Source: Armatimonadetes bacterium Uphvl-Ar1
GTDB taxonomy: Bacteria; Armatimonadota; Fimbriimonadia; Fimbriimonadales; Fimbriimonadaceae
Length of the DNA stretch: 64,000 nt
Direction of reading: 5' to 3'
Assembly (NCBI GenBank): GCA_002162075.1
Contig: CP021423.1
Location: 2,046,001 to 2,110,000, forward strand
Shown here: positions 15,141 to 44,956 of the stretch, piece after piece
Position numbering within the stretch: the first letter of the stretch is position 1
Layout: each line of letters begins with the position of its first letter
Notes under the pieces: generated by a model
What the model saw: only the letters and a program-made list of their open reading frames with translations
Databases searched by the model: none
What the model was told of the DNA's origin: nothing
Translations under genes and position numbers: made by a program

Positions 15141-15217
15141 AACTCCATCCTCAGTTTTACTTCAAATCCGCGCGTTCCCCATCAAATCTCTCCCCAATCA
15201 AATGAACAAAAAGCCAA

Positions 15218-15345
15218 GTGCCGGGAATTCCGTGTCACCCAGTCCTTTGATTTACCGCTGCTGCCTTCCGGCCCTGACGGGGTTCACCAAATTCCTGCTG
15301 CACAGCTCCCGGCGGCAGAGTTCAAACCCTGCCGCCAAAAGGCAC
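15218..15345 (-). ncRNA. ffs: Signal recognition particle RNA (4.5S type)
   Basis: On the minus strand the conserved SRP domain IV appears as GTCAGGGCCGGAAGGCAGCAGC, with the GGAA tetraloop region and the asymmetric AGCAG internal loop. The flanks GCCGGGA and TCCCGGC pair to close a long hairpin of roughly 100 nt. A further hairpin, GGCGGCAG/CTGCCGCC, sits at the 5' side (15319-15342) and may be part of a longer transcript or a processing feature. A T-run follows at about 15206-15210. The location just upstream of dnaX is a known conserved arrangement. Exact ends are estimated. Confidence 0.9.
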
Positions 15346-43466: not shown

Positions 43467-43964
43467 TCACCCTTCGCCCAGTGCCTGACCAATCGAATCA
43501 ACCGGTGCCGTATCCCCCGCATCCCTGTCACGATGTTCCCACGTCACCTCCCCTGATGAATTCAATACAAAAGTTCCCGAGAGCTGCAACGGATCACCAA
43601 CCGGAACCCCCACCCCATGCTTGCCCGCTCGAACCCCCGCCCGCCAAACATTTGGCCCAAAAAGCTGGACTAAACTCCCTCGCTTCAATCCAAAAACTTC
43701 GTACAGTTGCTTCCCCGGATCACAAACAAACCGATGGGGAGATTCCATTTTCAACCGAAATTTTTCCGCCTCCTCCGGCGGTGCCATGCAAACAAAAACG
43801 ACATTCCAATCTGCTTTCTCACGCAGCACCGCCACGTGTTTCCGGCAAAACGTTCATCCAAAATGACGAAGAAACACCAAACCGACTGGTTTTTCACTTG
43901 CCAGAACCCACAATGAAACACTTTCACCCGAGCTCAAAAGAATTTCACGATTGTCAATAATCAC
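43467..43964 (-). CDS. Peroxiredoxin-like (AhpC-TSA_2 type) protein with TGA at the redox-Cys codon
   Basis: 165 codons. From GTG at 43964 (10 nt after the rpoD stop) the frame reads a short N-terminus, then KPVGLVFLRHFG, TGA at 43856-43854 (codon 37), then TFCRKHVAVLREK and on to the stop at 43467. In this family the segment is FLRHFGCxFCR, so TGA sits exactly on the first redox Cys, giving UxxC if read as selenocysteine. The body (FVCDPGKQLYEVFGLKRG) is typical. Candidate hairpins after the TGA are weak: CTGC/GCAG with an 8-nt G-starting loop about 32 nt on. Otherwise it is a nonsense change or an error. Cytosolic peroxide reduction is expected. Confidence 0.7.
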
Positions 43965-43973
43965 ACCTGACTT

Positions 43974-44879
43974 CTACGCAAGCAAAACGCCCGAATCACA
44001 CTGTTTGAGCTTCTTTAATCCCCGCTGCTCAATCTGCCGAACCCGCTCCCTTGTGATTCTTAGCTGCTTCGCTACTTCCTCAAGCGTTAACTGGAGCCCA
44101 TCTTTCAAGCCATAGCGGAGGTTGAGCACCTCACGTTCCCGATCATCCAAAATCTCCATCACCTCGCGCACTGTCTGACGCATATGAGCCTGCTCCATTG
44201 CAACTCCTCCTTGATCATCATCCGGAATAACATCCTGTAAAGTCGAATCGTCTGTCCCTGCAAGCGGTGATTCCAAAGACATTGCGTCCGGAACCATTTT
44301 CAGCATCTCTGCCACTTTGCTGACTTCAATATCCGCCGCGCGAGCTACTTCATCCGACGATGGGTCGCGCCCGAGCTCCATAGAGAGACGAGCGGCGATC
44401 CGGCGAACTCTCATAGAACCCTCTACAACATGTACGGGCACCCTGATCAAACGCGATTGATCACTGATTGCCCGGCTGATCGCCTGACGGATCCACCACG
44501 TCGCATATGTCGAAAATCGAAACCCTTTATTCGGATCAAACTTCTCCACCGCCCGAATCAACCCGATATTCCCCTCTTGGATCAAATCATCCAAGCTCAT
44601 GCCCCGGCCCGAGTACTTCTTCGCTATATTAACCACCAATCGGTAATTCGCCTCGACCAGTTTCCGCCGACTTTCTTGACATCCTTCGCCAATCGCTTGG
44701 GCCAAAACAGCCTCTTGCTCGGCAGTAAGCAAAGGAGTACGTCCGACCGTAGCCAACCACAGTTTCAAACTGTCGTCGACTTGCCCCCGGTCACTAGCAT
44801 CGCCAGGCCCTCCATGTCCAACTGCAAATCCATTTGAAGACGCGCTCGTGCCAGTAAATTCGCCGTGAACCACTGCCAC
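43974..44879 (-). CDS. rpoD: Primary-type sigma factor RpoD/SigA
   Basis: About 301 residues (318 if TTG at 44933 is used). Region 1.2 appears as [22 protein letters not shown]; region 2 as [47 protein letters not shown] (interrupted by few changes), region 3 after [13 protein letters not shown] and region 4 as [17 protein letters not shown] ... [20 protein letters not shown]. The N-terminal region 1.1 is short. Follows dnaG with a 77-bp gap that contains TGTATACA, a possible own promoter. The peroxiredoxin-like gene starts 10 nt after its stop. Confidence 0.94.
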
Positions 44880-44956
44880 TCGATATGTCCCAGAGCAATC
44901 AAATGAGTGCCTAGATTGTTGTATACACCACAATTATCCAAATTCCAAACAAAAAG

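Follow-up and report, generated by a model that had tools for sequence, protein, structure and literature searches.

The TGA codon in the middle of a minus-strand gene of Armatimonadetes bacterium Uphvl-Ar1 is very probably decoded as selenocysteine (Sec, U), which makes the gene a true selenoprotein gene of the catalogued SelL-related family. It lies in the window, the 64,000-nucleotide stretch of contig CP021423.1 that was analysed here (Table 1). When TGA is translated as U, the frame 43964-43467 gives one 165-residue thioredoxin-fold protein, VIIDNREILL...LVFLRHFG-U-TFCRKHVAVLREKADW...LGEG; the next codon is again TGA, here an ordinary stop. The motif around the in-frame TGA is RHFG-U-TFC (UxxC), and apart from TGA-37 the frame contains no in-frame stop or frameshift before its end. 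Under the standard code, only the part 3' of TGA-37 is open, and the product would be a 122-residue protein devoid of the active site; read with Sec at codon 37, the gene encodes a complete selenoenzyme.

Table 1. Features of the probable selenoprotein gene and its surroundings (positions in the window).
Feature	Position	Strand	Basis
SelL-related peroxiredoxin-like selenoprotein gene (probable)	43467..43964	-	Translation with TGA=U, NF040769, PF13911
GTG start of the selenoprotein gene	43964-43962	-	GTG likewise kept in congener G006
Ordinary TGA stop (codon 166) of the selenoprotein gene	43469-43467	-	Translation
In-frame TGA at the first UxxC position (residue 37), inferred Sec codon	43854..43856	-	Translation; homologue column
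TGC, Cys40, second UxxC residue, inferred resolving Cys	43845..43847	-	Translation; homologue alignment
SECIS-like hairpin CACGUGGC-GGU-GCUGCGUG	43820..43838	-	8 bp, loop GGU, folding
Upstream RpoD-like sigma factor gene	43974..44933	-	ORF list

The protein with the TGA read through matches PF13911 (AhpC-TSA_2) of Pfam with 49.6 bits and NCBIfam NF040769 (SelL-related redox protein) with 135.6 bits, above the curated cut-off of 120. The latter match covers residues 6-161; thus, the homology extends to both sides of the TGA. All 11 relatives tested match NF040769 as well. The first-pass annotation had placed the TGA on the first Cys of a CxxC in a peroxiredoxin-like frame, flanked on both sides by the AhpC-TSA_2 pattern, and had proposed a selenoprotein (UxxC). 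The translation and the profile matches bear out this placement, and the codon column, the congener's TGA and the selenocysteine machinery, described below, support the proposal.

An AlphaFold2 model constructed with Cys substituted for Sec has a thioredoxin-like fold (mean pLDDT 88.7), in which strand 27-31 is followed by residue 37 at the N-terminal start of helix 38-48. The active-site Cys of thioredoxin folds usually sits at this place. The best solved structural match is the human prostamide/prostaglandin F synthase (PDB 9us9, 9usa; VIA Z 18.4, rmsd 2.1 over 151 residues, 26% identity), whose FGCVVC pairs with FG-U-TFC in the profile alignment. The CxxC of the human protein is thus aligned with the UxxC of the window gene, but it belongs to a Cys-only enzyme. 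The likeness to catalytic peroxiredoxins seen in the model and in this match is one of fold, and substrate specificity would not be deducible from the match to the human synthase.

A search for homologues in 201 genomes gave matches in 63, and 50 sequences from 48 genomes were aligned. At the position of TGA-37, 15 of the 50 sequences, including the window gene, have TGA, 35 have TGC or TGT, and no other codon occurs; the in-frame TGA is therefore aligned with a conserved Cys of the homologues. The recurrence of TGA in the identical column of relatives excludes a chance occurrence. The nearest relative, the congener G006 (PNMZ01000001.1, bacterium isolate BC.035), was assembled separately; its protein is 87% identical, and its gene shares the in-frame TGA, the hairpin and the start at GTG with that of the window. 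In only two of the 50 sequences does Ala (GCG) stand in place of the second motif Cys: that of G046, where the motif is UxxA, and that of G021, where it is CxxA (loci L035 and L060). The resolving Cys can therefore be lost, and one-Cys/one-Sec chemistry may operate in these proteins. In two genomes, G184 (L052/L067) and G124 (L053/L068), the family is represented by two paralogues, one with TGA and one with Cys.

The genome of Uphvl-Ar1, a single 2.99-Mb contig with a completeness of 98.8%, encodes SelA (381.8 bits), a full-length SelB above the cut-off (351.7 bits), SelD (347.7 bits) and tRNA-Sec (73.9 bits), the anticodon of the latter being TCA according to ARAGORN. All four components, which the first-pass annotation had suggested looking for, are thus present in one genome. 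The selD gene (L010 1501-2424) likewise contains a TGA in frame, located at the position expected for Sec (KCAGUASK within VKCAGUASKL), and after this codon lies a hairpin of 8 bp whose 3-nt loop is GUU. UxxK is the motif given for SelD selenoproteins (PMC13188914), and the TGA of this selD fits it; by its sequence, selD appears itself to be a selenoprotein gene. Counting that of the peroxiredoxin-like gene, TGA thus occurs at least twice in this genome where Sec is expected. As for formate dehydrogenase as a further selenoprotein, the best match is below the family cut-off and has no in-frame stop. SelA and SelB are above the cut-off in all 15 TGA-bearing genomes. SelA is found in 17 of the 33 Cys-only genomes versus 15 of the 15 TGA genomes (Fisher p = 0.0007, a value that overstates independence, the genomes compared being related). 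tRNA-Sec was detected in 14 of the 15 TGA genomes (in relatives at E <= 1e-11), and in the remaining one, G124, the search gave none at this threshold.

These data bear on four other explanations of the codon. A sequencing or assembly error in a true TGC or TGT would need one base change, and TGY is the codon of most homologues (35/50); however, the same TGA is present on the separate contig of the congener and in the identical column of 13 further genomes, each TGA genome having SelA and SelB. Alignment of relatives, another check suggested at first pass, gave TGC/TGT in some and TGA in others, the separately assembled congener among them, so the codon can be explained without a base error, which we regard as extremely improbable. 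The stop codon in frame at position 37 could also be a nonsense mutation that inactivated the enzyme. Against such a pseudogene, the frame is otherwise uninterrupted, and divergent relatives with intact frames have the TGA in common. Moreover, comparison with the G006 gene gives dN/dS of ~0.15 upstream of the TGA (dS 0.83) and 0.24 downstream (dS 0.23), and these low values indicate that both sides are under purifying selection. Inactivation is therefore very unlikely.

Termination at TGA-37 accompanied by a separate 122-residue ORF starting from the internal GTG at 43835 agrees with the ORF list, where 43467-43835 is given with a GTG start. Its product, however, would have neither the core strand nor the active-site motif conserved upstream of the TGA, and translation of this kind would account neither for the alternation of TGA and TGY in the column nor for the association with SelA, so that there is hardly any case for this arrangement. 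Nothing specific favours reading of the TGA as some other amino acid, for example Trp. As had been stated at first pass, TGA is also an ordinary stop: it terminates 17 of the 58 long, largely non-overlapping ORFs of the window. In addition, the column holds nothing but Cys codons in the relatives without TGA, and the tRNA-Sec of the genome has the TCA anticodon; decoding other than by Sec seems scarcely credible. Insertion of Sec at codon 37 thus remains the explanation that we prefer.

The first-pass annotation had considered the downstream folds weak. This turned out to be wrong, as it had missed the best of them, the 8-bp hairpin CACGUGGC-GGU-GCUGCGUG, the 3-nt loop of which begins 23 nt past the UGA (-9.0 kcal/mol). 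Published rules for bSECIS elements specify a loop of 3-9 nt, a stem of 4-16 bp, G in the first two loop positions, a spacing of 16-37 nt and an MFE <= -7.5 kcal/mol (PMC13188914), and the window hairpin has all of these properties. The G006 hairpin, GCUACGUG, is the same except for a single synonymous stem change, CTG -> CTA, which converts a U·G pair to U-A. In G008, the 8-bp stem is identical and the loop is GGA.

Taken alone, these general bSECIS rules carry little weight: hairpins that conform to them also follow 21 of the 218 Cys codons in the window ORFs (~10%) and occur in ~25% of synonymous recodings of the stretch after the UGA. No recoding (0/400) had matching stability at the exact place of the hairpin, but 50 of the 400 (57/400 for G006) formed a hairpin just as good at some position within the permitted range. 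In our implementation, the rule holds for 9 of the 15 TGA homologues versus 8 of the 35 Cys homologues (Fisher p = 0.02) and fails for the other six TGA homologues. The difference in energy of the hairpin after the codon, compared freely, is modest, -10.7 (TGA) versus -8.4 kcal/mol (Cys homologues), p = 0.012. Given this modest difference and these proportions, the hairpin is supporting rather than decisive evidence. No SECIS-type Rfam family was found in the region, as may be expected from the divergence of bacterial SECIS elements.

The following mechanism can be proposed. SelB carrying Sec-tRNA would bind the hairpin of the coding sequence 23 nt downstream of UGA-37, which would be decoded as Sec, whereas UGA at codon 166 would terminate the protein. 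Sec37 would act as the nucleophile of a thioredoxin-fold, peroxiredoxin-like oxidoreductase, the substrate of which may be a peroxide or a disulfide; Cys40 would resolve it as a selenenylsulfide, and a thiol reductant would recycle it. The Sec37-Cys40 pair would thereby alternate between the selenol/thiol and selenenylsulfide states, like the CxxC of the Cys forms.

The RpoD-like sigma factor gene ends 9 nt before the GTG start and is probably a transcriptional neighbour of the selenoprotein gene. A sigma-type C-terminus is also encoded upstream on the same strand in G006, G002, G008, G069 and G083; together with the 9-nt gap, this points to possible co-transcription, and the two genes may share a transcript. 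Elsewhere in the window, at 15216-15314 (-), a bacterial small SRP RNA was found (Rfam RF00169, 69.7 bits).

Among known systems, the window protein is most directly comparable with NF040769, since its score is above the cut-off and nothing excludes membership. The search result for this family does not indicate which members carry Sec, and no mention of it was found in the literature searched. SelL of fish, invertebrates and marine bacteria is described as a Prx-like protein with a diselenide (PMC2397514, citing Shchedrina et al. 2007) and has two Sec residues near each other (PMC3316567). The window protein resembles SelL in its Prx-like thioredoxin fold and in Sec at the redox motif, and bacterial SelL members have already been reported. 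Unlike SelL as described there (UxxU, two Sec residues two positions apart, diselenide), the window gene has one Sec and one Cys (UxxC). It is therefore not SelL sensu stricto, as only codon 37 is TGA and position 40 is TGC. AhpC/TSA selenoproteins of PF13911 with UxxS have also been described (PMC9312934; as cd02970 in PMC13188914). Their Pfam family and Sec position are the same as those of the window gene, but their motif is UxxS rather than UxxC. The UxxC form is thus added beside the known UxxU (SelL) and UxxS (AhpC/TSA) selenoproteins.

In the IQ-TREE phylogeny of the 50 proteins, the TGA forms require at least seven changes on well-supported (starred) branches. Parsimony on this tree gives 12 Sec/Cys changes, which is about equal to the number obtained with shuffled labels. 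Sec and Cys thus appear to have been swapped repeatedly in the SelL-related family. In the clade of the window gene, the starred order begins with G008 (U), continues with G002 (C) and ends with G000 and G006 (U). G002, a Cys form from the same genus as the window, retains SelA. Its position may reflect one Sec-to-Cys change, the alternative being two gains. Sec-to-Cys changes in prokaryotes are rarely documented (PMC13188914, a 2026 review). It is conceivable, and we suggest it tentatively, that the exchange is frequent enough to serve as a natural experiment on Sec gain and loss, which may include the Sec-to-Cys change in G002. With its patchy distribution of Sec and Cys across close relatives whose machinery status is known, the family would be useful for studies of Sec gain and loss.
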